Assembly (NCBI RefSeq): GCF_032362555.1
Contig: NC_083512.1
Span: 11,024,001-11,088,000 of the forward strand
DNA from: Amyelois transitella
Lineage: Eukaryota > Arthropoda > Insecta > Lepidoptera > Pyralidae
Reading direction: 5' to 3'
Length of the DNA stretch: 64,000 bases
Shown piece after piece: positions 10,320-39,400 of the stretch (its first letter is position 1; every line of letters begins with the position of its first letter). The notes under the pieces were generated by a model that saw only the letters and a list, made by a program, of their open reading frames with translations, did no database searches and was not told where the DNA came from. A program made the position numbers and the translations under genes.

Positions 10320-13300
10320 TCATTGCATCGTGAAGTAGGTCTGGTAGGCCAGGCCGAGCGCCGTGGTGAGGAACCAGGCGCAGCAGCTCCACCACGTGCC
10401 GAACCCCAGCGCGCCGCGCAGCACGCCCGCCGGGAACACCTACACCACGGGGGCATTGGCTCATTCAACATACATACATATAATCACGTCTAGGTAGAGA
10501 GAGACAACAGTATTTAAAAGACTGATAGGCCATTTTCTGCTGTTTGGCTTAATGATAGAATTGAGATTCAAATAGTGACAGGTTTCTATCCTATCGCCTA
10601 AAAGAAGAATCCCAAGTTTATAAGCCTATCCCTTAGTCGCCTTTTACGACATTCGTGGGAAAGAGATGGAGTGGTACCATTCTTTCTCTTAATACTATAT
10701 TTGTACTTATATTGTGAAACTATATACATATAATTCATTCCTACAATTAACAGTAACACCACAAGACCACATAAGGAGCCCACATGACAATTGTCAAATC
10801 TCTTGACCTAGTGGTTTTGGGCTGTGCCTCACGCTTCTTTCCCAGAAGGGTAGGCAGAGACTACATCTTTCTACTTGCCTCGATCCCTGTATTCCTTCTT
10901 TAGTTTGATCTTCTTCCATCTATAAAACAAATTTTTCACAGATGAAAAAAAACACAATTACCATTTTCAAATTTTCCCAAGCCAATTGATATTGCTCTGT
11001 GCCATCTTCTGCTATCGAGGATACCGGCGCAGACGCAGCACTGCACGTCTCCTGAAATCAAATATTGAGTAAGCCATATAAATCTAATCATAAAAATCAC
11101 TTTTGACCTTCGTGACTCTTGTTAACAGTACTGACGGCCTCTGTGCTGCAGCGGTAGTACGCTTGTCTGTGACACCGGAGGTCCCGGGTTCGAATCCCGG
11201 CCAGGGCATGATGAGAAAATAACTTTTTCTGATTGACCTGGGTCTTGGATGTTTATCTATATAAGTATTTATTACCAAATATAGTAGCGTTGAGTTAGTA
11301 ACTCAATTTTTGTAATTTGTCCCGTATATATTTATTAAGACCTTGTACAATGTTTGCTTTTCCCTTTCCGCCCTTAGCTTAGGAATTATTATCAACTTCG
11401 ACGTAAAACCAAAACAAATTCCTACGTTATTCGAAAATGCATCTTAAAATATTACAATAAAGCACACAATCATCAAATATAAAACACTGAGTTCAAAATC
11501 AATATCCATTTTTAAATTTGAAACTTCAAAAATGGCTGATAAAAAAAAACTTTTTTTTTTAAAGTTGATCTAAGATTATCCACGGATTTTTGGTGACAAA
11601 CATTGAAATAAATTTACCTGCGTCTCAAAGAACAGTGCTGACCAGGTATACCCTCCTAAGGTTTTGTACATCACGGCTAGATACAGACATATTACCACTG
11701 GACAAATGTACTGTAGAGCCACCACGCATAGGTAGTAAAATACTGAGGCTACCTGAAATATTGAGAGGAATCTATCATTATAATAAATCATACATACATA
11801 TGGTCATTTACAAGACTGTTGGCTCTGTCTACCCCGCAAGGGATATAGACGTGATTATATGTATGTATGTACATATGGTCACGTCTATATCCCTTGCGGG
11901 GTAGACAGAGCCAACAGTCTTGAGAAGACTGAATGGCCACGTTCAGCTACATGATGGGCTAGCACAGGTTGCTAGCCCATCGCCTAAAAAGAGAATCCCA
12001 AGTTTATAACCCTATCCCTTAGTCGCCTTTTAAGACATCCATGGGAAAGAGATGGAGTGGTCCTATTCTTTTTTCATTGGTGCCGGGAACCACACGGCAA
12101 TTATAAATATAAAAAAGTAAATCATTATATTATTAATTCAAGCTTGCATGAGGAGAGTTATGAATGTGGATGAAGCGAAGGAAGTATGCAGATCGTGGCA
12201 AGTGGAAAGATGTAGTCTCTGCCTCTGGGAAAAAGGCGTGATTTTATGTATGTATGTATCTATCATTATTACTTTTCACACTAGGTAAAAAGCGACTGTA
12301 GAAAGATATGACAATTATTAAGTGATATGAAGTCCTACTCCTCAGTCGTTCACTCTTCACAGAGTGGTCGTGGTTTTATGATGATGCGTCTTCTTTGGAT
12401 AATGCAATACAGCCCCAGAGATGCGCCTCCATTTGTTGCGGTCTTCATCGTTACGGGAACATTGGCGACGGCCTCTGTGGCGCAGCGGTAGTACGCTTGT
12501 CTGTGACACCGGGGGTCCCGGGTTCGAATCCCGGCCAGGGCATGATGAGAAACGAACTTTTTCTAATTGGCCTGGGTTTTGGATGTTTATCTATATAAGT
12601 ATTTATTTTAAAATATAGTATCGTTGAGTTAGTATCTCGTAACACAAGTCTCGAACTTACTTCGAGGCTAACTCAATCTGTGTAATTTGTCCCGTATATA
12701 TTTATTTATTTATTTATTATTGGACTATAGATGCTGATATGAAGTACCTATTCCATAATAACGAATAAATTTTTTTAATTTCGATTTTATTTTTTAATTA
12801 AATTTTTAATTTCTTTTTAATTTTCAGTTAACTTACCTTCTTCTGCAAATCGATATTAGTTATCCTGCCAGCCTCTTTCTTCTGCACATCCAACCTTCTC
12901 TGCGCCATGTCGAGGTAGGCCTGCAGTTGTTTGGGCATCAGATACAACCTCAGTACCGCTGTTAGAACCACCAATACTATGCGTAGTGTGTCGAACGCTT
13001 CAGGCCTCATTCTGTAAGCAATGTTCAGTTCATTCATTCATTCATTCATATAATCACTTTTACTGAAAAACGACCTACAAACAAGGAGTACTTACAGAAA
13101 TTTCCAAATTATAAATTCAACTCAAATAAACACTAAAATTACTGAACCGTTTTTGATGATATTTGACAAAGAGACGGACCGAAACGATAAAAATGTAAAG
13201 GTCATTCGAGGTGACTTCTTTATTCTGATATACCTAATTGTTTTTAGAGTTAGTTTTCCGAGTTTGTCATAACGCTTTCATTTTCGCGACCGATGTCGCG

Positions 13301-16300: not shown

Positions 16301-17073
16301 TCTAATTGTCAGTAAAGATGAAAGAATAACAATTTTATTAGAATAACTATGTGTTACTGTGTAAATTTCTATGCAATAAAGATATTACAAACAAACAAAT
16401 TTTGTTTGTTTGTTTATAAACTCTTTATTGCACATAAAAATAAATAAAACAAATTACAAAACAATAATTACAAATTTTCTTCAATAATTAAGACAATTAT
16501 CCAAACTTACAATAGAGAGTATAAATAAAAATAAAATTAATATTAATATTATAAATAAAATTAATTAATAAATAAAATTTATCTCTATCATAATTCTATC
16601 TTTTATTACTATCATATTCAAAATACTTACCTCTGACATAATATACACAATACTTGTGTATAAAGAGAAGTCTACTATCCACAGATACTCGGTATAAAAC
16701 CTTAAATGTACTACATCAAGAGGTGTCACTGGGGCAGTCTCAAGCTGAATATCCAAGCTTCTGGGCACATGAAACGTCTCAGGTTTCCCATTAGCTTCAC
16801 TTTTACCCCCCTTTTTACCTTTCAACTTGTCTTTTGGCACTCCTGCCAAAGCTTTCAGCTCATGGTTATCAGGATACAAGTAACGATATAAACCTTGCGA
16901 ACATAATAACCATCTCGCGAATGAATAGCTCCCTAGTTTTTGTATTACGGACACCATTATCAGGGTTATTACAAGTTGGGCTCCAAGTAAGGCCTGCGAA
17001 ATTAATTTTGATATAAGAAATAAATTCAGGTTTTTTTTACTTTCAGTCTTTGAAAACTAAATATACACACCAT
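10320..17073 (-). CDS. TMEM161-family transmembrane protein
   Basis: Multi-pass membrane protein of the TMEM161A/B family, whose molecular function is poorly defined. Ten coding exons on the minus strand: 17073-17071 (ATG only), 16993-16631, 16207-16128, 15201-14986, 14555-14439, 13853-13713, 13011-12837, 11752-11618, 11051-10962, 10439-10320. All junctions have GT/AG and matching phase; they sum to 1440 bases, about 479 aa against about 480-490 in the family. Diagnostic stretches: ALLGAQLVITLIMVSVIQKL at the N-terminus, SFARWLLC, EAFDTLR, QLQAYLDMAQRR, KEAGRI, VFYYLCVVALQYICPVV, VMYKTLGGYTW, and a C-terminal VLRGALGFGTWW segment. About eight hydrophobic spans are visible. It is divergent from the V-ATPase gene, with 1.4 kb between start codons. 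Confidence 0.92.
10474..10690 (-). repeat. Family A retroposon copy
   Basis: Reverse-orientation copy from the TATG-like tail (ATACATACATATAATCACG) to the CGACATTCGTGGGAAAGAGATGG block, lying in TMEM161 intron 9 just upstream of the last exon. Confidence 0.7.
10805..10915 (-). repeat. LINE 3' end fragment (family B)
   Basis: Matches in reverse the end of the resident LINE: CACGCTTCTTTCCCAGAAGG, GTAGGCAGAGACTACATCTTTC and the CTTGCC...TCC block. It lies in TMEM161 intron 9. Confidence 0.55.
11136..11340 (+). repeat. tRNA-headed SINE (family D)
   Basis: Starts GACGGCCTCTGTGCTGCAGC, has the B box GGTTCGAATCC at about 11188-11198 and ends in CCCGTATATATTTATTA. It is shorter than the 12467 copy through loss of the CTCGAACTTACTTCGAGG segment. 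Confidence 0.75.
11808..11867 (+). repeat. Family A retroposon 3' end, plus-strand arm
   Basis: Only the last ~60 bases of family A, starting at CAAGACTGTTGGC and ending in TATGTATGTATG. It faces the next copy tail to tail, forming a 44-base perfect inverted repeat (11811-11854 with 11879-11922). Confidence 0.7.
11868..12105 (-). repeat. Family A retroposon, near full length
   Basis: Reverse copy from the TATGGTCACGTCTATATCCC tail to the GGTGCCGGGAACCACACGGC head, which defines the approximate 240-base unit. It lies in TMEM161 intron 7. Confidence 0.8.
12147..12260 (+). repeat. LINE 3' end fragment (family B)
   Basis: Encodes the RT C-terminus remnant [13 protein letters not shown] and then ends GGCGTGATTTTATGTATG, with the short TATG-repeat tail seen in all family B copies. 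Confidence 0.65.
12467..12719 (+). repeat. tRNA-headed SINE (family D), full length
   Basis: Best copy: head GACGGCCTCTGTGGCGCAGC with A box TGGCGCAGCGG, B box GGTTCGAATCC, body ending TCTGTGTAATTTGTCCCG, and a TTTA-repeat tail. About 253 bases. Confidence 0.85.
13515..13680 (-). repeat. Family A retroposon, truncated
   Basis: Reverse copy with ACATACAATCACGTGTCCAT tail, GTTCAGCTGTTTGGCTCAA and a degenerate head. Lies in TMEM161 intron 6. Confidence 0.6.
14145..14295. repeat. Two family A 3' ends in inverted array
   Basis: CAGCTGAACGTGGCC...TCTACCCCGCTAGGGA runs on the plus strand and is met by TTCCTAGCGGGGTAGACAGA in the opposite sense, giving a hairpin-capable inverted repeat around 14205-14255, followed by a TATGTATGTATG-like tail. 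Lies in TMEM161 intron 5. Confidence 0.6.
14620..14850 (+). repeat. Family A retroposon
   Basis: Forward copy with a small internal duplication of the ACTCCATCTCTTTCC segment at its head and the GATATAGACGCGATT end. Lies in TMEM161 intron 4. Confidence 0.65.
15271..15425 (+). repeat. Family A retroposon, 5' truncated
   Basis: Starts at ACTTGGGATTCTTTTTTA and ends GGGATATAGACG, so only the 3' 60 per cent is present. Lies in TMEM161 intron 3. Confidence 0.65.
15560..15625 (-). repeat. LINE RT C-terminal fragment (family B)
   Basis: On the minus strand the sequence matches the block that encodes [15 protein letters not shown] in the better copy at 45498-45728. Only ~65 bases remain. Confidence 0.4.
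15775..15905 (+). repeat. Dispersed repeat shared with ~57302-57440
   Basis: GCCTTAGCAAGATGAGGCCTAAGG followed by CTAGCCTTGAAAATC and a TACCGCCAT block resembles 57312-57440. Family not recognised. Confidence 0.35.
16355..16450. repeat. Tail-to-tail retroelement ends (CAATAAAGATATT family)
   Basis: GCAATAAAGATATTACAAAC on the plus strand is followed by a near reverse complement ending CTCTTTATTGCAC. A single forward copy of the same end occurs at about 4255-4312. This looks like two AAAC-tailed retroposon 3' ends meeting head-on in TMEM161 intron 2. Confidence 0.5.
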
Positions 17074-18486: not shown

Positions 18487-21400
18487 ATGGGGTCTTTATT
18501 CAGAAGTGAAGAAATGACATTATGCCAGCTTTTTTTACAAAGTGAGGCAGCGTATGCCTGCGTTTCTGAGCTTGGAGAACTGGGACTTGTGCAGTTTCGT
18601 GATGTGAGTATTTTCTATAAATTATGCAAACGGAGTCAGTGGAGCTTTCTCATTTCGCCAAGAACATTTCCAATTTGAATTGGAAATGGAATATCTATGA
18701 CCCAGTTTGGTATGTGATTGTATCGTACGCCCTCTCTATGGTACATATAGTCATGTCTTTATCCCTTGCGGGGTAGACAGAGACACCAGTCTTGAAAAGA
18801 ATGAAAGGCAACATTCAGCTGTAAGGCTTTATGATGGAATTGAGATTCAAATAGTGGCAGATTGCTAGCCGATCGCCTGCAAGAGAAATACCAAGTTTAT
18901 CCCTTAAGCCTATCCCTTAGTCGCCTTTTACGATATCTATGGGAAAGATATGGAGTGGTTTCTTCGTCTAAAGTGCTGGAAACCACATGGTATGCTATAA
19001 AGTAGGTAATCACTATTCTTTCTTCTAGTTTTTCTAAAAGTTTCTAAAAGTCATCAATTGTATAAAATTAAACATGAATAATCTTCAACATTCATTATGT
19101 ATTTACATAATATGTTATTGAGAAAATCATTGGATGTTAATTATTCACACTTATGTTGTTTATTTTATTTTTATGTAGGTATTTATTATTTTTATATTTG
19201 AGTTTGTATCCAGCAACAATACTATAAATTAAAACCTAAAAGCATCTGACAACAACTTCTACAAACCTTAAATTCCTTCTGTTGTCATTGAGGAGGTGTT
19301 TCTTCTGTTGGTATCTTGATGGTCTCTTCCTCCCGGCTTTAGTCCCGGTTGCATCTTCACCACTCTGGAAAGGAGCACTGGGTATGCCATTGACCATGGA
19401 TCCTGGATTGGGTGAGTCAGGTTTTTACACAAAGCGAATCCCATCTGACCTCCGCAATCTTTGCAGGTAAACTTAACATGTATTGGATCCATAGTATGCA
19501 TGATAATAACATCAAGAAGCTCCCATTCAACTCCATTTTTTTTATTCCTTAATTATACATTGATGATGTAATGACAAAAGTGGGATTTAAACCTGGGTCA
19601 TGTTGACGATTTACTTATAAATTTTTAAGTCATGTGATTATTAAAATTTGATAATTTAATCTTTTATTGATTTGGCAGGGTGAATTATCAGATAAAGTAT
19701 CGGTTTAATTATATAAAGTGATAATTTGATAGATATATGTATGTGTACATTAAGTGAATATGAAATACTAATTGAAAGTTCACTTATTTATCTAATCCAT
19801 ATCATGCAGAAAATGTGATTTTAAAAAATTACTGTTTGTCTGTATGTATGTTTGAACTTGCAAAACACGAAAAGTTTTTTCTTCTTCTTTATAATGGAAA
19901 TTGGAATTTTCGTTAATCCTTTTTTTGGGATGCCTTAAAATTCCGAAGGACACAAACATGCAATTTTCTGCTTTCTAAGACCAGTGTACTTCAGACATAT
20001 GTTGTGTGTCAAACAGAGAGTGCTGTGTGGTTCCTGGATTCAACAGAAAAAAAGAATAGGACTACTCCCTCTTCGCACTTCATGTCTATATAACTTTTGG
20101 GGTAGACAGAGCCAACGGTCTTGAAAATACTGATAGGAATATTCAACTGGCTTAATGATAGAATTAAGATTTAAATAGTGACTGGTTGCTAAGCCCATCA
20201 TCTAAAAGGAGATTTCCACGTTTATAAGCCTAACTCTCAGTCGTCTTTTACGACATCCACGGGAAAGAGATGGAGTATTCCTATTCTTTTTTGTATGTGT
20301 GCGGAAACCACACGGCACGCACACACCCTAGATGCAACTAGGACCAATACTACCATAATAATTATATACTGGGAAATGATAATTAAGATTAGTTTTTTTT
20401 CTACAGCTAAACCCTGACGTCAATGCGTTCCAACGCAAGTTCGTCAATGAGGTCCGCCGCTGTGATGAGATGGAGCGGAAGCTGCGGTACCTGGAGAAGG
20501 AAATCAGGAAAGACGGCATCCCCATGCTCGAGATCCCAGGGGAATGTCCCGAGGCGCCGCAACCCAGGGAAATGATCGATCTTGAGGTAATTTACTTTAG
20601 GTAGTATTATTTTACTTTTATTTAAAACAGTTATTTAATGGGGTCTGATGATAAGGAGTTAAAATCTTAATCATGAGATCAATATGAATGATTTCTACAT
20701 GCTTGAGATCTCAGGGGAATGTCCCGACGCGCTAAAATCTAGGGAGGCGATCGATCTTGCGGTATTTCCCTAGTTAATAATTTTAAAGTTCTTTAATTAG
20801 GTCTGCTGAAAAGATAGGAATAATCAAAAATTTGTAGTATTAGGTCAAAATGCAATGGCATCCAGTTGGTGTGAAGCCCAGGGGAATATTCCGTGGCTCG
20901 AGAAGTGATTGACTTTGAGGTACCTTCCGTATTGGTTCTCAAATGACGATAGTTAAAAATGGGTCAGGAAGTATCCAAACTTATAACATTCACATGCGGA
21001 TGATCCCAGGGGAATCTTCCGAGACCGGCCTTTCTTTGTCCTTACCGTTTCACACTGTTAACTCACTAGCCACTTTTTTCATTCATACTCTCCTCTACAA
21101 TGCTGCAATGCTGCTGTTAAGTTTGTTCCGCCGCTTCTTCTACACATGCGCTTTGGAAGCGGTGGTAGATATAATTAGATTTAAGTTATGTAACGTTAAT
21201 AAGTGAAACCTTGTATCCAAGTTTGAAAATAAATCTATTCTATTCTACGCTGTCTATCCAACTCTTTTTTGGGCTTCCCCCATTTCTTAAACCTTCTGAT
21301 AAGAGAGAAGAACCTTCCAAAGAACCGCACTGCAGATATATAAATCTTGAGGTAATAACGAAGTTATGTCGCAATGGTGCTATAGGTTATATTTTATAAA

Positions 21401-24400
21401 AGTGGTTAATATCAACTCGTCCTGGGTATCGCCAACGGTTGGAATTTACATACATTGAGCAACAATGGTTTTTCTATATTAACTGGCTGTGCCCGCGACT
21501 TCGTCCGCGTGGAATAGTTGTTTTCGGCATCATTGAAGCCCTCAAGGAGCGTGATGCTAAATAGCCTAAAGCCTTCCTCGATAAATGGTCTATTAAACAC
21601 AAATATATATTTTTAATTCGAACCAGTTGGTAGTTCCTGAGATTAGCGCGTTCAAACAAACAAACAAACTCTTCAGCTTTATAATATTAGTATATGTATA
21701 TGGAAGTAACGACATGAGGTATAAGCTTGATCGCAGTAGGTATAACGTAAACAACATCTAGTATTTTTACCGAAGCAATTAAGATTCGAGATGATCTTCC
21801 TCATTCGAAAGCAAAAAAACACGACATATCATTATCTGAAGATTATGATTGGATTATAATAGTGATAACCTGTTTTTCGGGGGACACTATGGCATTTTTG
21901 TATTTCCTCATGCATATAAGGAAAACATACATATATAAGTATTTATCATAATCCCATACGGGGAACGACAGAGCCAATAGTCTTAAAAAGACTAAATTGA
22001 TTTAAATAATTTAGATAGGTTTAATTAATGACAACTTGCAAGTCCATCACCAACAAGAAGAATCTCAAGCTTATCCCTTAGCCTTTCCCTTAGTCGCCTT
22101 TTATCCTAAAATGCCAGGAACCACACGGCACATGCATATAAGTAATGTTTGTGACTTTTTTTGTAATTAGCAACTGTTAATTGCTTACTATAATGCAAAC
22201 AATTCAGTAGAAAGATGTAGTCTCTGCCTACCCCTCCGGGAAAAAGGCGTGATTTTATATATGTATGTATAAACCCGAGCTCGCACAATACACCTTATAT
22301 CAAGTTACCACGCATAGAACTCTTCTGTCGCGTTAATAGAGGCGAATTTAAAGTTAATTTTTGCAAATCGATTAATTCTATATCCTTAAGATTCTCCATC
22401 TAAGTCCAACTAAATTCTATCATTCTTCACGTTCAGGCCACCTTCGAGAAACTGGAGAACGAGCTGCGCGAGGTGAACCAGAACGCCGAGGCTCTGAAGA
22501 GGAACTTCTTGGAGCTCACCGAACTCAAGCACATTCTGAGGAAGACGCAAGTATTCTTTGACGAGGTGAGTTGTTGAACCCCACGCTCTTACGAGTAGGC
22601 GTCGTCAGTTAGTGTTGTCACCTGCAATTGTTTTGACATGAAGTTGATTGATTTGATATGGTTCTTAATTAAACTCTATTATGAGTCGTTTTTGTCTGTG
22701 TTGTAGGTGTAGGTATTTGTTAATTAAAGATTCGTTACATTGATTCGTCGTTCATGTCCCTTTTGTATATTTGTTAATTGAAGTTAATTGTTTTTGTTTG
22801 ATAATGAGAATTTCTTTGTAATAGTATGAAATTAGAATCGTAGAACCTATCATGTAGATTTGGAAGGAAAACTTTTCAATATGGTTTTTGAAAATAAAGC
22901 GGATCCATCCTACTTCAATGGGACTTGTGAAATCCCGATGATAAAGTCAACAAAGCAAGCAAGTTAAAGTAATAGATTAAGATTGTATTATGAACCAAAA
23001 AGACACTATTGAGTCGAGTCCTGTACATCTTGACATTGGCGAAGAAATAACCGAAATGAAATGAAAGGAAAAAAAATTGAACAGATCAATCGATAAAAAC
23101 ATTGCAGGTGGCAGCACCGTAGCGATTGGTAATTACCAATCGAGCCACGCGACACCAAATCACATGATTACCAACCATTCCTACATTTCCTGATTATCTG
23201 TGGTTCGTTCACGTAACCTCGATCGTAAATTAATTACATCTATCGATAAGATAGCTGTGATAGTGAAACCGCAGATTACAAATGTCTAATATTTACTCGG
23301 GATTTTGAATTATGGGATGGTGTTAGGGTTGCCTGATGTCAAGATTACTCAAATTCAAGGAGTCCGAAAATAAGAAGGTCGCTTTGAAACTTGAAAAATT
23401 AACCCTTTGTAATATGAGCGCGGGAAACGGTCCGCCTATTTATGACAGCTGCCAAATCTAATCTTTCAGACCTATTTGCTTGAATTTTTTTTTTTGCATA
23501 TAATTTCAATGCTCTGGATACATTCATTCTGTAGATATAATTCGCCTTTCGAGCACAAATTTTGATCAAGTTTCATAAAAGTGAAATGTCTTGAAATTTG
23601 ATTTTCGAATACTAAAATATTAGAGATAAAGTTCAGCTACTTACAACAAAATGTAACAATTTGAACATTTGGCAACCCTACACAAGAGCGACGTCACGCC
23701 GGCCATCAGTTTTACAGCATCATACATTACGATAGTGAATTGTCATCAATCATTAAACAAGACTTTATTCGCTCGGTTCTTTAATCTTCTACGAATAAAC
23801 AAAACGTTAGGGGCCGAGAACAGATTATAGCATTGTACTATCACAAGGTTAATGCTGTTGTAGAAAAAAAATTAGCTCCACGATCGAATAAGGTTCATAT
23901 ATCTCTTTATTTTTTTTGTCCTCATTTATTCATTTACCGTTATCCTTATTTTCGGTCAGTGTCTCATTAAATTATTTCATTTAAATTACATTATCTATAT
24001 AAGTAGGCAGCACTTAACTGTTATCATCGGAAACTAAACTCACCCTATTTTTTTTTATCTTTTTTATTTTTAATAATTTTCAATTTAATAAAGGTCGTGG
24101 GACTTATCTACTTATTGTTTTCATTAGTATGACAGATGTGGGCTTCAAAAAAATTGTTTTTGTCAAAAGTTTAGGTTCGTTTCTTTTAATCTGTGCGACC
24201 GTTGACAATGTCACATTTTAATTACCGTCTATTCATTTCTTGTATCTTCTTAAAGTATCCTGATTTTTTAGAAGGCTATAAATACTTAATTATATACCTA
24301 GTTTGTTGTTTTCCTTGCATATTTTTTTGGTCGATAAAAAAGTCTTAGACATAAATTTAAATAAATAAGAAGAATATACCCAGCAGTGGGACCATAGATT

Positions 24401-27400
24401 ATATAAAAAAAAAACAGATAATCATATAACATTTCTGTTTCTAGTAACTGTAAATGTCGATTACACAAATGCACAATCAAATTGCCTTCACGCACCTAAT
24501 TTACACGGTCATTAAACTGTGACATTGACATTGGCCGCCTCTGACCTTGACGCCATGTTGGCGTGTGTGTTGCACAAGATGGCGGACCCGTCGCGCGAGG
24601 AGGAACAAGTCACTCTGCTAGGGGAGGAGGGACTCATGGCAGGAGGGCAAGCTCTCAAACTGGGGTATGCCAGATTGATTACGATGCCACGTTGATTCTT
24701 TCAAGTTCACTTGCAACAAATAACCCAGTTTTCATATTCAAAAGCTTGCCAGTTCAACTTGCTTGCTGGGACGTGATCGCTTCTGACGCATATTATCTTC
24801 CTCCTTTCTTGCCATTAACAGTGTTACTTGGTCCAAGTGTACTTGAACGCGTCAATGCGGCTTTTACCGCTCTCTGGACCCCTTTGACTTTACCGAGTCA
24901 AAGCAAGTCCTTGAGCGTTATTATTTTTGCAGCGCTTGTACTGTGACGCTGATACGGGAGTCTACCGATCACCACTCAGGCAAGCATTGGAGTCGGCCGG
25001 TTTATAGTATATCATCAACATAACACCTCTCTTTGACTTACTGTGTGATGGAATGATAGCTTAGCGTAGCGCCGAGAAATGTCGATCCTCATTCGAGCTT
25101 CGACATCTAGATTGGACCCTGTGGAGCTAACCATTGCTGCCTGAGTGAGTTTGAACTAACAACCGAACATGATTTATTTTTGAAGTCCTCGATGGATGTT
25201 AAACAGGTCGAATGTGAGCGAAGTCGTTATCAGTATTTATTTTTCAGTTTTCATATCGTTATGCTTTCTGTATACATGTCATATGCATGCCATTATGATT
25301 TTATGTTCTTGTTACCAAGTAGTCTAGATCACGATGAGATACAATATTCAAGCGTTAATATACATATATCCTTATTTAGTTTAATTACACTGTATTTTGA
25401 ACACTGATGGAGTAGCTATGGACTAACAAAAATTTAGAGATTTGAGTAGCTTTTAGTTAGGTACAGCACAAGATGATCCGAGCGACGCGTTGGCGCTACT
25501 TTTTTTTACTACAACAGACGAACGGATACATATAGCGATGCCCTGTTTGTTGTATTGCGTACCAGCTTCGTTTGTGCCGTCCGGGCGTATGTAAATGTCT
25601 ATGTTTGTCCGATAGCACGAGGGTGGTGCCAATACCACTGAATCGATGACGCGCGCGCTGATTTCCGACGACCCGAACAGACATATCGGGCATGTCCAAC
25701 TAGGGTATGTATGCGTGTGTACATACTACATTAGGCACCAATTTTTAGCATCACAACTAGACGGTAGCTGTTCTTCGATGTGGAATTCTCAGCGGAATTA
25801 TAGAACTGTGTGAATATATTATATAGGTCATGACAAATTTGGTGACTTTATTAGATATTGTTTGATGGCGTGCTTCATGTTTCATTTTCTGAGTTGATAT
25901 TTGATGGAACTCAAACACGGATCAATTGAGCGGAGTGTAACATTTGCGTAACTCGACATCTTTGGCGTCATGTTTCCAAGATATCTGTCACATAAATTTG
26001 AATGTGAAAGAAATAGTCGGATGCTGTTTCTATTTTGGCAAATTTTAACCAGGTATCCATAGATGAAGAACAGCTGCAGTTTAGTGGTTATGTACGAATA
26101 TAATCCCAATAACATAGCAACAAGTTACGTCTGCTCTACGCGTTTGGTTATTAAGAATTGTCACCTGATCACCATGAGTGGTTATTTCATTTGCATCTCC
26201 GCCTTTTTGGATATTGAAAAAATGGTAAAGATATTTGTGGTCGTGTCAATCGACGTAAAATTGCATGCGTAAAAAACACGCGGACGTGGCATGTCGTTAT
26301 CAATCAAGGTGTTCACATAACGTAGACGTTTTTATTATTTGATAAAGTTTGTCCACATCCTTTGTGATTACCGATTACCATACTAAGTCTACTATGCTTC
26401 TGACGCTACTGTTACGTGTGGACACCTTCAAGGATTCCCGATAAATCTGCGTTACATTGTTAAATTTATTGCAAATTGAGATAAAGTTAAAGTAACGTGG
26501 ATAATAACTTACAAAGTCACTTTACTGAAACAGTAACTTAAAAAGATAATAAAATATTAATGCATGATAAAGACTTAACTCTCACAGTCCTATTTGTAAA
26601 TACAATAGTGAAAGTAATGATATTAATTTAAAAAGCTGATATATTGCCGAAGATGCTTAATCAAATTCAAGACTTAGATTTACAATTAATTGTTACAGTA
26701 TAGCACTAAATAAATTTTCTAAAATTTTTGCTTGATTCTCTAGTACACGGGATAAGCAAGAGTCTTTGGAATTTCTGCCTTGGTTAGTAGTAATTATTAT
26801 ATTATTGTAGTGGGTCTGTAGTTGTGGCGGGTAAATTTATAGATATGTATGTTTATGTGTTTATTGTGAACGTGTAAATCAGCTTGATTTCTTCAGACGG
26901 AACAGCGTTATTTGAGGACAAAACTCAAAACAGTTTTTTTGTCATATTTTAACATTGTCTGGGTTTTTGTCTTTTACAAGAGAAACCTCTGTGTATTTAT
27001 TTGATTTGTTTTAAAATTTGGGATGGGAAAATGAAGGAGACGACATCGCAGTTTTGAGTTTGCGCCTCCAGACTCCGTCCTATAGGAACTTCTCAATTGA
27101 CCACAATATTATCTATTATCACTATGCTTACTAACACTTCACTACAAATATCACTTATTATACTTATCAATGTGCGGAAGGTAACATGGACTTCAAGAAT
27201 AGATAATGGCGTTAGGTGCGAATATTGTAAATGCTGAATATTTTCGGTTTGCGCGCTCACATTTTTTCTATTCACGACACGATGCCAAGTTTACACGGAT
27301 CTAGTAGCCTATTCTTTAGAAATTTATGTAATTCGCGACCATTCATTGATGTTTCAAGAGTGCCCAAATGCGGTTTGATATCCAAATTTGCTATTTTCCA

Positions 27401-30400
27401 GAAAATATTACCACCCTGAAATTTTTGTTCTTTTGAGCTACTAAGTTCTTTTAAACTGAGTGTATCAAAAATGTTTTACGTGTGATTAATGCCCACTTGT
27501 TCTAATCCCCTGATTTTGATTGCTTGAATAGAAAAAGTGTGAACTATTCGAACACTTTCCTTTGAAAGTGATCTAACAGCGTCCTGGTACGAGTGTCTTA
27601 GATATTAATTTTATCTGTGTATATTTCCATTTTCAGCTCACCCGTGTTATTTTATTGTTAGCATTTGAATGGAACAATTCAATCTTTATGTCCCAAGTGT
27701 GAATAGGCAAAGTTACAAAAGCAACCTTGGTTACACTAAGAATGGAGCTGATAAATTAAGTTAGCGCACGTCTATATTTTTACGCGACTACAAAAGGAGG
27801 GTTTTAATTACTTATACCGCTCAATGACGCCAACCACTTATAGTCTCGGATACCTCCATGGTATTATGGAAATTCGAAACGGTTCTAGATTCAGCTTAAT
27901 TTTAAAATGCAGAAGTGTGTTAAACGTTTAATTTGATGTGTGATATACTCATATATCGTTTTTATATATGCACGAGTGTAAGTATGTATATAAAATTCGG
28001 TGCTCAGGCAAAATACTTATTAATTAAACCTTTTTTTCCTATTATTTTTTGATTTACTTTGTTTAGTACGATCTGATCAAAGAACTAGAAACGATTTTAA
28101 AAGATCTTGTGTGACCAACGATTGCATTGCAATTTCCATATTGAAATGTTGAATCAATTATACGTTGCATCTTTTGATCCTACTACATATTATTATATTT
28201 CGTATGAAATAGTATTATTTTTAACAAGTAATTAATTTATGAAATAGTGTTATTTTACCGAAAAATTGATCATGTGGTTATCAAAATTATCAGACCATGA
28301 GCCGTACCATCGCCCCGTGGTACACATGCATCGTTATCGTGCCGCTTATTGTTAGTAAGTTTAGCATCATAATAGACGCGTCTCGACATTACACGGCTAT
28401 TAATGAGTTATCACAAGCCATTGTGTTGAGAACCTCGAAACTGCCTATCAGTATTTATAACTGTCGTCGAGGCTTGTCTAGAAATCTATTTGAATGATTA
28501 AGTACGAGTTATAATTCGATTTGCCGTTCAAATTTTGTGTGGTTTTCGACAGAATGTAAATCTATTTCTTCTTGCCAGGTGGGCTTGCCAAAATTGTCTG
28601 TTAAATCTTTGTCAGACGCAGTATCACTTGTTGCTGTATTGTCCTGATTCCTAAGTACCCTTGTGTAAATTTGGGATAAAGATTTTGGGTCATCATTATT
28701 ACAATTAACATTGCCTGCAATTTTAAGACATACATTTTTGCTAAGATTAATTGTAGTGATCTTTCGATGACCTGATTTTAACATACATTAAAATTTTCTT
28801 TTAAAAATGTATTATAACGAAATTTATATCGAACCAGTATTGATGATGGTAACAGATATGTAGAATTGCAACAACAATTAAAAGAAAATTTTAATTGACA
28901 CTGGAAAGTATGAATTAATACTGTTACTCAACGATCGACTTTTGTCGTAATAACTACTTTGTATCTGTTCAATAATGCTTAAAAAATCTACTGGTACTCT
29001 TCATATCAAATGGAACATGTGATTTCGTTATATCACTTTATGGGCATAAATCTTCCATTCCAAAGTTTATTTGGCGCCAACATTGAGTTATCGAGATTAT
29101 TTCTATAAATTCTGCCACATTGTGATTAGATTTGTTAAATTTCCTGTTTAAGATAACGGCGCATCAAAACAAAGCCTGATATACAGCATCAGGTCATGAC
29201 TTACAAATTTTCTAGACTTCGAGTCTCAAGGTTTTCTTATCTCGATAGTAAAAAATGTGGATCAAATGTAATCCTACATCAGCAGAGATTGTTTGCAATA
29301 GATTGATCTTTGTCTACGGTATGTTTATTTGGATTTTAATCTAGTTCTATAAATTGTTTCGTAGTTGTGTTGGAAAATTATTTCTTTTTTAAGGAAATGA
29401 CGGACAAATACACTGATTTTTAAAAAGTAAAGTTTAAACTAAATTTTACATTGTTTCTCACAACAAAAATCTGAATTTGTCAAACTAAAAAGACGTTTAT
29501 TTTTTAAATGTTTATTGATATTGTTGTTGTTTTGATATATATCACTTAATAAAAAATATATATTCTCCGTCGTGGAAAATAAATTTGTTATTTGTAATTT
29601 TATTTCGGCTGGTCTTAATTTGAACGAATTTCAAATAATATAAATAAATATTTTTAACAACCTGTCACTATTTGAATCTCAATTCTGTCATCAAGCCAAA
29701 AAGCTGTACGAAGCCTGTATCTCCTGTCTTTTCAAGAATGTTGTCCCTGTCTACCACATAAGGGATATAGACATGACTATATGTACTTACTCAAAATTAA
29801 CACAGAAAAATCTCTTTGTTCAGTACTTCCCCTATCGAATGAGTTCCAGTATTCAATGAGTCATGAATATCACGTGTGCACCTCGGGGAGTATTTCTCTC
29901 TCAACTCATACTCACACGACAGTTGTTGCCTGCAAAAATATTTAAATAATCACTCAATTTATATGGGATCTCGTGCTGTACTGCATTATGCAACTACGGA
30001 AGTTGACTGGCAGATTTTATTTCCCTCGTATTCAATCCATTTTAATTTGTTATCCAAACTGTAAACTTGTAAAATTTTCATTCATAAATATTAAATTCTT
30101 ATTTTGTATTACGTGATGCCGTAGTTTCGTAGTAATTTAATTAGTTCAACGTCAAAATAATACCGCAGATTGCAATGATATGCTCAAATTTTTATTTAAA
30201 AAAAACTAATGATAATCAATGTTTAAATTTAAGTGTGAATTGCACGATTGAACGTGGTTTATTCACCGTGAACGTCCTCATTTAGCAGTTTATTACTTTT
30301 AGTTTCAATAAAGTCAAAAATAGTTTCTCTGGAACTACAAAGTGGTGGTTAAACCAATTGGTCACCGCTCGTTTCAGTCCGTTCCACTTCCACCCACGTA

Positions 30401-33400
30401 TCATATAGCAGAACCGCTTCTATTGTTCCAGTTGTGTTTACAAATACTTGCATTTGATGTAGTTTGTCATCTTGTATGCGTGGTCTTGTTTGTAGACTTA
30501 CGTCCCGTTTCTGATAGTTCATCTACATATATCTTTCATTGGAATTTTCATATTGGTTAAATGATGTGGAAACCAAACATCTAATGCAAAATTTAGATTT
30601 ATTATATTATTTTTTAAATTGCCTTTTTTTTAATAATAACATTTTGTACTTTTTTTTATACTAGAAGACTTGGTGAATTTGATTAGCCAGTACTATTTTA
30701 GCGATTGATTTGCAAAAATAGAAAGAAGTCTCTCATAAAATACGCCATGATGGAATTAACATTTCTCGAACAATTTTACGAATGTAAGGTCGTAAATAAA
30801 GTTGATTTTTGTTTTGATGAATCAACGAAATAAAGTTATGGCAATATTAATTTTACATTGCAATGTGATTATAAATCGCTGATTAAAATGTAGCGTTGTG
30901 AATATTTAACAAATAAACTCACAAGTCATGTGGTATCGAGTGATTCACTATTTCTGAGTATTTCATCTGCGGTGCGTCGGCGGTTTTGTCATTCCATTTG
31001 GTCATATGTTACTAAGTGGAAGTAATTATTATAGTTCTTTGAATTCCTTAGTCGTTTTTTATCCAATTGATTTGTTATTCTTTCTTCAACTATCACTGTG
31101 CCCAACTGACTTTATTCATAGGTATATATGGGTATTATTGCATGATAATGCAAGCCGTGTGGATATTTTAATAAAAAAATATTGAATTCAATAAATATGA
31201 GATACAATTTTATTGTCAACCACATCTTACATGTGCAACCACAGTACAGTAAATTTACTCATATCGTCATTCTAGGCTTATCCTCGTGGATGTTTTGATC
31301 TTATACAATGGAAGTCAGCAATAGGATTAATTGGTCCGATTGGAAAGGATCCGGGCATCAATCAATGGATTCAGTTACCATACTGCGTCTATCCGAATGA
31401 TGGTTAAGATTAATATTTTAACTACCACAAGTTTTAAATTTTAATTAAGTCCCATTTATTCATTCTTTACAAATTCCAAAAGTGACTTTTTACACAGTTA
31501 TAATATCTGCGAATTCCATTTTCTTCTTAGTGTCATTTTTTGAGATATCCATATGATTATCGACGCGCGCGCCGTAGCCATCTTTATGCATGTGATGGGA
31601 GAGTGGAACAATCAGCAGTCACTCGCTAATTCGATACAGATGATCAGTGTTGGTTCTTGTTGAATGGTGTCCGTCAATTTGTCAGTCACGAGTCGGGTCG
31701 ATGGTCTGATAACTGTTCATGTTTCAAAATATTGGCTCTAATAAGCGGAAATTGGCGAAATGCAACAGCTGCGTTTGTATTCTGGGCTGATTTTCTTTGG
31801 ATAATCTATATCAATGAGAGAATTGTTGTAGAGATAGTTTTTAGAAACACTTATAAATTGGGCTGCAAAGTGTCGACTATTTCGTTTTTAGGATAGTTGA
31901 TATCTTATTGATTATTTCCAAAATTTGTTTGGTCATTTAGAGCATATTTTTCACAACTGTCATATGGAGTTTATGTAAGTTAAGTAAAACACATAAGTTT
32001 TCAAAAGTCAGTGATTTTTCTTATTATTATAAACAAAAGTTGAATTTAACTATTTTAATAAAAAAAAAATTTATATTTTGTTACCGTTTGTCTCAAAACT
32101 TCTTCTCTTATCAAACTTTACGTGCTGTAAACTCTAATCTGAATCACAGTTCTTCATTTTCGACTCAAAGCCATAGAATAGTAAATTACACTTGACATAC
32201 AGCTTGCTAAATCGAAATTAGTTCACCATTCAAGTGGTCTGTGTTTTGTTCAACACATTTACGGAATGTAGTCATCGGGCACTTAATGTCGATCAGTATT
32301 CTTTACAAAAACGTCGAATAAAAAGGCTGATTTACCGCTGTGTGATCATTCACAATACAGTTACATTATGTAACCGTTCGTATGAAATTAGTGATTAAAT
32401 GTTATCCTTCACTTTAACCAACTACGTGAGATGTCATCAGCATGGAACAGGGGAATATTGTTTATATTATTGTTTTTATTTTAATGTAAAATTGTTAACC
32501 TGGTACCATGGTTAAGTTTCAGTAATAATAGTTAAACACACTTCTGCAATCTTACTTGTAACATCTATGATTACCTTACGTCAATAATTGATCTGCCTTT
32601 GAACTGGATGTAAAATACTGTGGAAAAAAAAATAACGAAACGGGAAAAAGCGTTAACGAATATTAAACGATAGTTTGATAGAGCATCACAATGGATTAAA
32701 TAATTGGAACAAAAATGAAAAAAAAAAAACAAAAGAGATCCATCTTACTTCACTGCCATAAAATTATTTAAGAGTTTTCCGTAAAATTAAATTTAAGCCT
32801 TCCCTTGGACAAAGAGATTGTAATAGTAATTATCGTTTAAAAAAACATTATCACATTGAAGTCGTAAATAGTTAATTATGATTGTTCTACAATTTACTAT
32901 TAACAATTTACGATCTAATAAATAACACGGGTGAAAGTTTTCCACGTCAAATTGTAAAGGAGATGTTGATTGTATATTTGAAATGTAACAATGCTTCATG
33001 ATATGCTTAATTTATTTCCGCGATTATAAAAGAATATACTACTATTTAATATTCCGTAAAATTTCCATTAGGTACTTGTTTTATCTTTGTTGTATCATAT
33101 TTATATATCTTCATTCAATATAATATACCTTACAAAAATCCTCATAAAACAACGTCTACTAATTTTTATTATCTTTATTACGGCATCTATAAATTTCAAT
33201 ATAGCACAGATTACATAGGTTTATACGTTAAAAAAAATATTTCATTGAAAAATAAAACCGATCGCTAGCCCTATGTATTATTTCACCTTAAAAAATTAAT
33301 AAATACCAACGATAATTTTAATATTAATTTGCTCTTAAGTTAACACAATGTAATGTATTAGTGCATTGCTACTGGGCATTGTCACTACGAGTCAATGCTC

Positions 33401-36400
33401 TTATTTATTTTTTTATGGCGATAATGTTCTAGAATTACATTACTTCGTTGCCATACATATTATGTCTTAACATCATGCATAAAATGTCTGTTATGAATTT
33501 GTTACCTTAACGATTCGCCTGTGCAAAATCATATTTTAGTTAGCTTGCTAGTAAAGTAGGTCTAACTGTTTATAGGTCGGACTCTTCTAATATGATACAC
33601 ATTTAGAAAGCGTCGTTTGCTCGTGAAATATAATCTAATGTTTTCTGACTGCAAAGTTTATTATTATTTTTTATTTGAAACTGGTTGGTACAATGATGTC
33701 ATGACAAGCGAAATTATTCTTCTAAGAGCGAACACGGCATGCGTACGAATATATATGTTATATAAAAGTAAAGTTAACAAATAAAAAATATTATTAATAT
33801 ATAATCACGTCTATATCCCTTGCGGGGTAGACAGAGCCAACAGTTTTGAAAAGACTCATAGGCCACGTTCAGGATTTATAAATAAATAAATAAATATATA
33901 CGGAACATATTACACAGATTGAGACTTGTTAAGACTTGTGTTACGAGATACTAACTCAACGATACTAAACTTTATAATAAATACTTATATAGATAAACAT
34001 CCAAGACCCAGACCAATCAGAATTCAGGCCGGGATTCGAACCGAATTTATAAGAGTTATATGTATTGGCAAGTAAAACCAAATCCTAGAAGATCGAGCAT
34101 AAAAGAATCACAACTCCTGAATTATTTACCAATCTAAACACCTGACTGTCGGCCCGTCTGGAAGGCATTCCTACAAGACACGGGTGCCATTCAAATATAA
34201 ACTGTTTACGTGCAGACTTGGTGCGTTGCCAAGGCGACGGCGCCTCGCGTCATCACCAGGAAATCTCCCGGTACCAGACGTGACTTCGTCGTAGACTACT
34301 TTGAGACCTTTTAATGGTTGATGCTCCATATTGTTGAATTGATCATCGAGTAATCAATTTGGGGCGAAAACACATTTTTCTATGTATGTATGTTTGTTTG
34401 TAACGCGATAACATCTGAACAGTGCGTTGGTTTGAATTGAAATTTTTTTAATCAAAATAAAAAACCTATGAAAAACCTCACTCACCCAATTCAAGATCCA
34501 TAGTCAAGGGCTTTCCTCGGGCTCCTTTCCAGAGTGGTGAGGATGCAACCGTGACTAGCTATGAAGAAGAAGAAGACCGTTACTAGGAAATGACTTGATT
34601 TCATACCCCACTGCAAACGTCGACTAAAGTTGTACTTTGAGACCTTGAACAACACAATATCATCTAAAATGTCAACCTTCACTTGTCTTTTAAGGGAACA
34701 CCTCTTAGCATGTCTTCCATTTACGTTATATCACACAACAGAATCCTGAAACACGAACACTTATTTGGCAATACTTATTCGTGTCATACAAATATTGATA
34801 GGCACTACAGTCGTACAATTTGTTCGGTACAGTTTTCTCTCACGAATATTATGAGAATTGACATTTGTGTCTTTCAGATGAGAATTGTGAGAAGTGGTGG
34901 TAATTGACGAATATATTTTATTATGGTTATCACACGTTGCCGCCGTGCGTTTTGTGATTCATATCCTTTTACGTGTGGGGATTTCAGAAATAAGATACGT
35001 TCATTTAATATCTGGGTTGTCCCAGATCAAGTTAAATGCAAATTTTGTTTTAAGTATGTCTTCTGCTTACCGTTGCCTTTGTGGCTTTTTGAGACTTTTG
35101 GCTTTGTTCGCTGAAAGGTATATAAAGACTGCTAAACTCTGTCTATCCTACTACATAGTACCATTGTGTTGCCCCAAGGTGTGACACGTGGGACGGTTTT
35201 GTCCCAGCAGTCTTAATATGCAGACATATCAGACAATACATGTGAAAAATATAATTTTCTTGATGATTTAATAGGCTAAGGTAATTTGATGTGCTTATTT
35301 TAACAAGAAAGGTTTTGAACATGGTGTAAAAATTAATTTTACAACGTTAATTTCCGGATAGATAGCTGAAGTTTACGTTTACCTTATCGTTATATCACAC
35401 ACATTAGGAATGTTTTAGTAGAAGGGGCCTTGTAGTATTTATCATGGATTCACAATGGAAAAAAGATGATTCTAATCTTATCTTTTGACTACCTTTTGCC
35501 CGGTTATTTCCTCATTGTAGTTATTTAATTTAATCTTAAGTATTTGTAAAAAGCGCACTGTTATATCTAGGAATATTGAGGCACACACACACTAATACAT
35601 ACAGTTATTATAACTATTATGAATGCCAAGAACTATTTTTGTAGTGTCCTTGGTCAAATTAAGAAATATTGATTCATAGTTCGTTTTATTCTTTGTTTAC
35701 TTTTATAATAAACAAATAAAATCAATCGTGATGATGTTTTATGTTAATAATTTGATGTACTATTTATATATAATACACTAGCTGTGCCCGCGACTCCGTC
35801 CGCCTGTTATTTCATCATGGTATCATTGAAGCCCTCAAGGGTGAATAATTTTCCCCGTTTTTTTTTTACATTTTCCATTATTTCTTCGCTCCTAATAGTT
35901 GAAGCCTTCCTCGATAATTGGTCTATTCAACATAAAGAAATTTCCATTCGAACCAGTAGTTCCTGACATTTTTGACTGACGTTCAAACAAACAAACAAAC
36001 TCTTCAGCTTTATAATATTAGTATAGATAATACAGGTATAATACACTATGTGCACGTTACGAACCTATATATTTTGTCTCGACCGTTTCCAATCATATTA
36101 CAATGATCCGTGGTCACCCAGCGACCGAAAACCAGCGGGCTACTGCTTAGTCAGCACGGCAGAATGTTCTTCTGCCGCCAAGTTCTTAACACGCCAACTA
36201 CCGTCACTGACAAGAGTCCGTATTCTGGAGCGCGGTCGTATTACGATGAATTTTAACCGACTTACTTTTATTACTTTTCGGACATATCAGATAATACATG
36301 TGAAAAATATTATTTTCTTGATGATTTAATAGGCTAAGGGAATTTGTTTTGCTTATTTTAACATGCCATGCCGTGTGGTTCCCGGCACCAATACAAAAAA

Positions 36401-39400
36401 GAATAGGACCACTCCATCTCTTTCCCATGGATGTCGTAAAAGGCGACTAAGGGATAGGCTTACAAATTTGGGATTCTTTTTTAGGCGATGGGCTAGCAAC
36501 CTGTCACTAGTTGAATTTCAATTCTATCGATAAGCCAAATAGCTGAACGTGGCCATTCAGTCTTCTCAAGACTGTTGGCTCTGTCTACCCCGCAAGGGAT
36601 ATAGACGTGACCATATGTATGTATGTATGTACATTCTTATTACTTTTTTAAAGATTTTACTTTACGGGCGAGTTTAATATCTGTATTATCAATAAATAGT
36701 AGAATGCAACGCGATAGTTTGAAATCAGTTAATTTATGTAGTTTGTCGTTTGTGGAAGCGATAAATTGTAATACATTTATTGCTATATTTGTGTTGATAA
36801 GAATTATTAAGGAATCAGGAATATATTACTACCGTATTGTATGCGGTTATTACAATACATACATAAATACATTAATTTAGATATCTTTATAACTATAAGA
36901 ACATACAAATTAAACTTTCATCAACAAATAATTATAAAATAGGTTCTTTGCTTTAACAAAGAAGTAGAATATTATTATCATCACTAAATAAAAAACAAGT
37001 TTTAAAATAGTATAATTAAAAATATATTATAAAAAAAAATAAAATCAATGTGTACACTACACTACCAAAAGAAATTTGGCGTTAAGTAGAAATGTCAAAA
37101 TTATAACGTGTATATAAATTTATCTCAATATATCGGCGAAACAGATATGTATCTACTGGAAATCAGCTAAACTCATATTTATTTTGGGAGGCGGATTCCG
37201 AAAACTAGGTTATCGAATAGATAGATAATATTTCCCACATCAGTATTATCTATATCTTTAGTTAAGAAGAGTTTTCTCTGTATTTATAGTTAGCGCCAAC
37301 ACTTGAAGTTGAGCTAAAAATTAACACTAAACAAGTAAGAAAATACGGCAGATGTTAACCGCTTTGAAAATAAAAGTGATTCTCAGTTTGACCTGTATGA
37401 ATAGATTTGATTAATATTGTTAAAGATGATGGATGTCCGCGATCATCTCGCGTTACGCTGAACCGTTTTTGATACGGTTCTCGGGAATGTGGTTGTTATA
37501 CTTAGGAGAAGGTTTTACAAATGTAATCGATTTGAGCAGGCTTCTCATTTTACAAAAGTTATATACATATGTATCAAATACCTATTTTTCTCTATTCTTT
37601 GATATGCGTGCCGTGTGGTTTCCGGCACCAATACAAAAAAGAATAGGACAACACCATCTCTTTCCCATGGATGTCGTAAAAGGCGACTAAGGGATAGGCT
37701 TAAAAACTTGGGTTTCTGCTTTTAGGCGATGGGCTAGCAACCTGTCACTATTTGAATCTCAATTCTATCATTAAGCCAAATATCTGAACGTGGCCATTCA
37801 GTCTTTTCAAGACTGTTGGCTCTGTCTACCCCGTAAGGGATATAGACGTGACCATATGTATGTATGTATGTATGTATTCTTTGATATATCTATGACTTAA
37901 ATGTCAAATACGTTGCGTTTTATATATTTCTCTCTTCCGCACTCGCATGTTAGTACGTCTGTCACAAAAATAATGGTTCCTTCTGTTTTAAAGAACAGTT
38001 GCAAGTAACTTGTGACTATATGTATCTGTGTCATCATTGTGCCAGCCAACAGAATGTGACTTAAGAGTTTTTTTTTCGATACTGTTGGCTCCGTCTACAC
38101 CGCATGGGGCAGGGACGTGATGTATGTATGTGTGTATACAGTATAATGTTATTAGTATTCAAATTTTAAACTGACTTTCGACATCCAAGCGGTTTACGGA
38201 TTGCATATAAATGATATATACCTATTGTATTGTGAAATTAGTTTGCCTAACGACAAAGAGTAGTCTTCCTTTTGAAACGCGAGTTGTCAAACCTTTGACT
38301 TCTTGCCAATTTGCACGGGATGTAAGAATCCGACCAGTGACAGGTTGATTTGCTCAAATTAAAAAAAAATATGTTTTATTTTTTAATTTTTTTGTTCTGT
38401 CAATTTAAAGAAATAAAGTTCTACGAGTATGAAAGATGAGAATGCTGTTTATATTCATTTTTAATATTTTGATTTTGCAATAGAGCATTATTATTGTTTA
38501 CATAAATTATTCAACATCTTCTTTTAAATTTGGAAATGTGTGAAATCGGACTATCGATTCGGTTTTCTAAGATTAAGTTTTTAATATATTTTAGTAGCTA
38601 TAGCGATTTTTTTTTATGAAGAACTCTCATAAGTAGAATTTAAACGCGTTCATTAAAAGCGTATGGTATGATGAGCGTTTGTTTAAGATAAAATATTAAA
38701 TAATTATCTTGTGAAATTCCCAAAGATTTTATAGATTTATCTCATTTAAGTATTTGTTTAATGATGAAATCATTAACTTATCACACCCGCAACTCGTAAT
38801 ATTTAAATGTGATACAAGATTCGTGTAATTTTTGCTGTCATAGTCGTAATTTATTATTTGCACACAGAATATTTACATTAGAACACTACTTTTGATTGTA
38901 ACGTAATAGTACATCCGATTTCTTACATTTGCAACACTTTTTATTTTATAAATAGAAAACTTAGTTTCAATAAAATTAGATGGTCCATTTTCTCTGTAAT
39001 TTTTTACTATCTTGTATCCAATGAATGGTTAATTTTTATTATACAACCATGATAAAAATCACGTAAAATTATGCATTTTAAAGTAATGTAAATGGTTTAA
39101 CTTTGCTTTATACAATACAATTTTAGATTTTTATATGTGGTGAAATAATCTTGAAACTTGAAGCAAAGTTTTGAAATTGTAAATATTTTTGGACATAGGG
39201 TGGGTTTTATAAATCTGCATCCCTTTTTATTTTCCATCCGCGTACAAGACGTCATTTATTACTGGCAAACTATGTGAAAATTCAATAGCCACCAGTCTGA
39301 TAAATATAATTTTTACAACGTAAATATTATGTTCTAAAATGTAAACTTAACATATCTTGATTAAGCTACTAAGTTCGTGTAAACGAGGCATCATTCAGAC

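Follow-up and report, generated by a model that had tools for sequence, protein, structure and literature searches.

A probable pair of mutually exclusive exons that exchanges one cytosolic segment of an insect V-ATPase a subunit

The 64,000-nucleotide window of the Amyelois transitella genome analysed here contains a V-ATPase a-subunit gene with two neighbouring short exons, 4a (24579–24664, forward strand) and 4b (25616–25704, forward strand), between exons 3 and 5. We conclude, with a probability of roughly four in five, that these are mutually exclusive exons of an insect a1-type gene that swap a single N-terminal segment of the encoded protein. The two are probably a real alternative pair, and their arrangement is best read as one of mutually exclusive use. 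If both exons are used, one gene gives rise to two a1 subunits whose only difference is a stretch of about 29 residues within the regulatory N-terminal domain, providing a clean natural swap for tracing the residues behind targeting of the pump to a compartment or its coupling to V1.

Exons of the a-subunit gene were placed by hand using conserved protein motifs and splice borders and then checked by script, with every exon other than 4a and 4b assumed to be constitutive. The complete coding span (18487–54413, forward strand) comprises 18 coding exons in each transcript, with GT–AG borders at all introns and a single open frame, and yields an uninterrupted protein of 839 aa with exon 4a or 840 aa with exon 4b. 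The N-terminal 272 (4a) or 273 (4b) residues matched the PF01496 (V_ATPase_I) profile at 258.7 and 261.1 bits, respectively, against a cut-off of 30.7; this match and the full-length protein bear out the a-subunit identity proposed by a sequence-only reading of the window. The best relatives of solved structure were a1 chains (425–438 bits), followed by a4 (322 bits) and by plant and yeast chains (at most 187 bits), which places the gene in the a1, or Vha100-1, type among matches that included no animal a2 or a3. Its introns are filled with repeats that we take to be typical of Lepidoptera, and the solved a1 chains matched here are presumably mammalian. In the excerpted text of PMC10352029, 6WLW is named as human.

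Exon 3 (22437–22565, forward strand) ends in RKTQVFFDE at phase 0, and exon 5 (39818–39944, forward strand) starts at phase 2 with T|TTC GTG GCC (F V A), its first base, 39818, completing a glycine codon. Exon 4a measures 86 nt (AG before, GTATGC after; 28 residues plus GG) and exon 4b 89 nt (AG before, GTATGT after; 29 residues plus GG); both lengths equal 2 modulo 3, and each exon has an entry phase of 0 and an exit phase of 2. With 22565 joined to 39818 through 4a or 4b alone, the gene yields an a1-type a subunit, the segment that the exon encodes forming residues 143 to 171 or 172 and linking VFFDE of exon 3 to FVAGV of exon 5. Joining both shifts the frame, with the first stop at codon 182, and joining neither does so with the first stop at codon 176. 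Neighbours of similar length and identical phases, out of frame when both or neither are used, 4a and 4b are built like a mutually exclusive pair in the broad sense, and each would supply the same variable stretch of the N-terminal domain on the cytosolic side. The sequence-only reading had described these coordinates, lengths, phases and GTATG donors, along with the breaking of the frame by both or neither exon and the location of the segment in the cytosolic N-terminal domain, and all of this held up. Its statement that splicing must pick one exon does not follow, as the frame-lock makes double or zero inclusion unproductive and does not prevent either.

We then scored every open AG...GT stretch of 23–199 nt running from phase 0 to phase 2 between exons 3 and 5, using splice and codon tables built from the gene's other exons only. 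Exon 4a ranked first among the 476 candidates with a score of 32.2, and exon 4b sixth with 12.8; between them stood two fragments of 4a, the stretch 34504–34550 and the stretch 36122–36234, which itself has no repeat match and is flanked by repeat matches at 35902–36028 and 36281–36400. An earlier version of the scan with a cut-off on the acceptor score lost 4b entirely. Both alternative acceptors are weak, scoring 1.5 (4a) and −1.4 (4b) when the gene's 16 other acceptors, each left out singly, range from −1.4 to 9.7, so that the 4b acceptor is level with the weakest of them. Weak splice sites are usual in regulated exons and are also expected in false ones. We regard 4a as close to certain to be an exon and 4b as likely to be one, with weaker support than for 4a.

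The weak acceptor of 4b and the five candidates scoring as high or higher, two of them 4a fragments, would suit an alternative that we consider unlikely, in which 4a is the sole real exon and 4b an open frame that arose by chance or the relic of an exon no longer in use. Against this stand the 89-nt length of 4b, free of stops and with the right phase on both sides, and its composition: its GC content is 57% versus 33% for the interval, and its coding score was second only to that of 4a among the 179 candidates of at least 70 nt. Across the 17.2 kb of 22566–39817, GC content reaches 57% or more in four peaks, namely 4a, 4b, 34199–34311 and 36107–36196. Isoforms of Drosophila Vha100-1 presumably include an exon similar to 4b. 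A phase 2-to-2 scan for an additional cassette exon downstream of 4b and before exon 5 gave no convincing candidate (best score 14.2 among 78), and short motifs of a Drosophila isoform had no match there. The peak at 34199–34311 is an isolated GC-rich stretch inside the 14-kb intron downstream of 4b.

Peptide comparisons separated the two exons. The 4a peptide aligned at a score of 50, reached by 0 of 5,000 shuffles, with the a1 segment MADPDLLEESSSLLEPSEMGRGTPLRLG known from solved chains, and with a version of the a1 segment carrying a seven-residue insert at a score equalled by 2 of 5,000; its 28 residues alone, searched against solved chains, gave no match at E values up to 10. The 4b peptide showed no resemblance to any of three versions of the a1 segment (3,649, 2,225 and 2,357 of 5,000 shuffles scored as well) or to 4a. 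Because 32% of 1,000 shuffles aligned with 4a equally well, there is no recognizable similarity between the two exons, and we do not class the pair as born by tandem exon duplication. Given that 4a matches the a1 segment and 4b matches neither, 4a appears to be the segment type common to solved a1 chains, and 4b would be either very diverged or separate in origin. Relatives of the insect a-subunit exons were found neither in two scans of viral contigs nor in one of genome contigs, and plasmids held none of 4b; the lack of a sequence relation to any relative reached is compatible with 4b as a chance or dead exon.

Pfam scoring likewise lends 4b no support. The higher full N-terminal score with 4b (261.1 versus 258.7 bits with 4a) was discarded as evidence after a shuffle control in a shorter frame, where 4b scored 137.0 bits and its six shuffles 136.3–137.0; because the shuffles score the same, the profile is uninformative on 4b. 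Exon 4a behaved similarly (134.6 bits; its six shuffles 133.9–135.1). Four intron decoys gave 125.1–133.8 and deletion of the segment 119.8, values from which we conclude no more than that the profile accommodates a hydrophilic stretch of about this length.

How one exon of the pair would be chosen is a separate matter. Steric hindrance was rejected as the basis of exclusivity because the 951 nt separating 4a from 4b (24665–25615) are too long, and incompatibility of U2 and U12 sites was rejected because the donors GTATGC, GTATGT and GTGAGT, judged by eye, are not of the U12 type, the consensus of which we take to differ from all three. With so long a gap and donors resembling the U2 class, exclusivity would have to come from regulatory factors or RNA structure, together with degradation of wrongly joined products. 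The same gap lets 24664 join 25616, and the frame consequences permit a second alternative, that both exons are real and not strictly exclusive, with abundant transcripts containing both or neither lowering the output of the gene through decay; we consider this very improbable by analogy with C. elegans unc-32, in which exon 4 is mutually exclusive by RT–PCR according to the part of PMC3585155 available to us. A third, that 4a opens a shorter protein from an intron 3 promoter with its own ATG, is scarcely credible, for although 4a begins ATGG in a fair start context, the MADP residues lie in register after DE inside the solved a1 proteins, so the methionine is best taken as an internal residue, and a product without residues 1–142 would lose much of the N-terminal domain.

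Candidate structural elements flank exon 4a. Upstream, an inverted repeat with 81% complementary arms (24195–24231 and 24502–24538, forward strand) ends 40 nt before the exon; 0 of 60 shuffles were as good, the best reaching 19.0 versus 19.5, and the fold z was −2.45. Just downstream of the 4a donor lies another (24686–24730 and 24817–24861, forward strand), equalled by 1 of 60 shuffles in the repeat test and with a fold z of −3.16, reached by 0 of 200 shuffles. The best inverted repeat downstream of 4b did not stand out, 6 of 60 shuffles doing as well. These hairpins could be a control element, hiding or presenting 4a, or the remains of mobile elements.

Acceptor composition offered a further hint. 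In the 60 nt preceding each acceptor, TGT and GTG together occur 8 times for 4a, 6 times for 4b and 9 times for exon 5, compared with 0–7 times for 15 other exons, exon 1 being omitted because it has no upstream coding intron. Only 3 of 816 relabellings were as extreme, in a grouping that was chosen post hoc with exon 5 on the alternative side, and exons 12 and 14, the high controls, adjoin repeat sequence. Downstream counts were ordinary (4a, 0; 4b, 5; others, 0–6). We read the richness in UG at these three acceptors as a post hoc regulatory hint. The available portion of a review (PMC4290612) describes UNC-75 sites as accompanying exclusion when upstream of an exon and inclusion when downstream, a rule by which the UG run before 4b would speak against inclusion of that exon. 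The RBFOX motif TGCATG occurs 5 times in 22000–40000, compared with about 4 expected by simple arithmetic.

On our preferred reading of mutual exclusivity, both exons would be used in RNA with each cell choosing one, a choice that most likely allows one cytosolic segment of the pump to take two forms in different cells. Transcripts carrying both exons or neither would be removed by nonsense-mediated decay, of which they are expected substrates because their early stops precede many exon junctions. Trans-acting factors may make the choice, perhaps CELF/Bruno proteins like the one that acts on unc-32, and the hairpins on either side of 4a may assist. The exchange would probably affect sorting or regulation of the pump rather than the proton path, and the role in targeting or V1 coupling suggested by the sequence-only reading is plausible by analogy only.

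Several other features of the window were recorded. Four exons of the a-subunit gene have edges copied into neighbouring introns. The 3′ end of exon 2 (20407–20586) recurs in decayed form in the next intron at 20698–20767 (81% over 70 nt, E = 6e-14), extending a few bases beyond the exon end, and a second piece lies at 21002–21023 (91% over 22 nt). The 3′ end of exon 6 (40865–41041) recurs in the next intron at 41545–41601 (86% over 59 nt) with an altered donor, and the 3′ end and donor region of exon 9 (45770–45909) recur in tandem at 45957–46244, with three matches at the DNA level and four at the protein level. The start of exon 7 is duplicated upstream together with the repeat element preceding it (43863–43953; 96% over 91 nt), and this copy, when read on, meets a stop. 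Inspection by eye also revealed a possible 9-nt microexon between exons 14 and 15, TTAATGGCG (LMA; 50902–50910), with AG before and GTAAGA after. The upstream neighbour of the gene is part of a TMEM161 homologue (16565–16957, reverse strand; PF10268), and downstream lies an uninterrupted flavin amine oxidoreductase open reading frame (60551–61969, forward strand; PF01593) that resembles protoporphyrinogen oxidase; a reverse-strand open reading frame at 57590–57928 matched no Pfam family. Three tRNA-family matches above the Rfam gathering score (11137–11208, 12471–12542 and 48615–48687) are taken to be heads of tRNA-derived SINEs.

Among known systems, Drosophila Vha100-1 is of the same gene type, and its annotated isoforms presumably contain both exon types, 4a-like and 4b-like; for this reason the pair may be annotated already in insects. 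Judged by title and start of abstract, no paper among the literature matches listed deals with exons of this mutually exclusive kind in the a subunit of an insect, and the listed matches on Drosophila Vha100-1 describe no such exons.

In a1 (presumably mammalian ATP6V0A1), whose segment aligns with 4a, chain 9bra_a has AELHHQQ between DE and MADP, exactly at the position of the exon 3/4 junction. The insert is lacking in the five other a1 chains among those printed and may be the product of an alternative microexon. Splice variants of mammalian a1 are known, two of them being sorted differently in rat neurons according to the excerpted text of PMC2835735; the parallel is drawn at the level of a1 variants as such. 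ATP6V0A1 would differ in adding a short segment, whereas the insect gene would swap one.

Alignment ends of 12–291 in 36qx_a versus 3–271 here set residues 143–171 at about 152–191 of that chain, which by its name and length is presumably the Arabidopsis protein VHA-a1. Excerpts of PMC10313074 and PMC10352029 portray the cytosolic N-terminal domain of the a subunit as a dumb-bell that contacts the peripheral stalks at both ends and carries sorting and lipid-binding information. In Arabidopsis VHA-a1, a targeting domain (L132–E179) decides TGN/EE localization, 34 residues being partly sufficient (PMC7717909, in the part available), and it is placed in the distal end of the N-terminal domain (PMC10313074, likewise). 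To go by the alignment ends, the exon 4 segment may overlap this targeting stretch. The plant sorting stretch thus occupies about the same N-terminal position, as far as these excerpts go, but is fixed in a separate gene, is specific to seed plants, and is likened to the insect segment by position, not by sequence.

The nearest parallel in exon arrangement is C. elegans unc-32, also an a-subunit gene, for which the available portion of PMC3585155 reports mutually exclusive exons 4a–4c between exons 3 and 5, with reporters active mainly in intestine (4a), neurons (4b) and pharynx (4c). There, exon 4b depends on the CELF protein UNC-75, although four probes spanning the exon 4 cluster were tried and UNC-75 alone shifted none effectively (PMC3585155, same portion). 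Any of three isoforms rescued the worm neuronal mutant (PMC3585155, same portion), and by analogy a large functional difference between isoforms is therefore less favoured. In both genes the alternative exons sit between exons 3 and 5, with one used per transcript in the worm, according to tissue, and presumably one in the insect too; they differ in that the insect has two exons rather than three and in that UNC-75/CELF regulation is established, on the text available, in the worm. The likeness is one of exon number and neighbours, and the two places in the protein may correspond.

A broader reading, which we put forward as possible though doubtful, would make the exon 4 position an ancient exchangeable slot in the a1-type subunit, holding three exons in nematodes, two in this insect and a short insert in mammals, with a sorting signal nearby in plants; in insects, CELF/Bruno-type proteins bound to the UG-rich sequence at the acceptors of 4a, 4b and exon 5 would then shift neurons from 4a to 4b by repressing the former, so that synaptic-vesicle pumps would be addressed differently from the gene's other pumps. 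The interest of the pair would rest mainly on its parallels with unc-32 and a1, and, if both exons are used, 4a and 4b raise the question of whether nematodes, insects and mammals have splice choice at this position in common.
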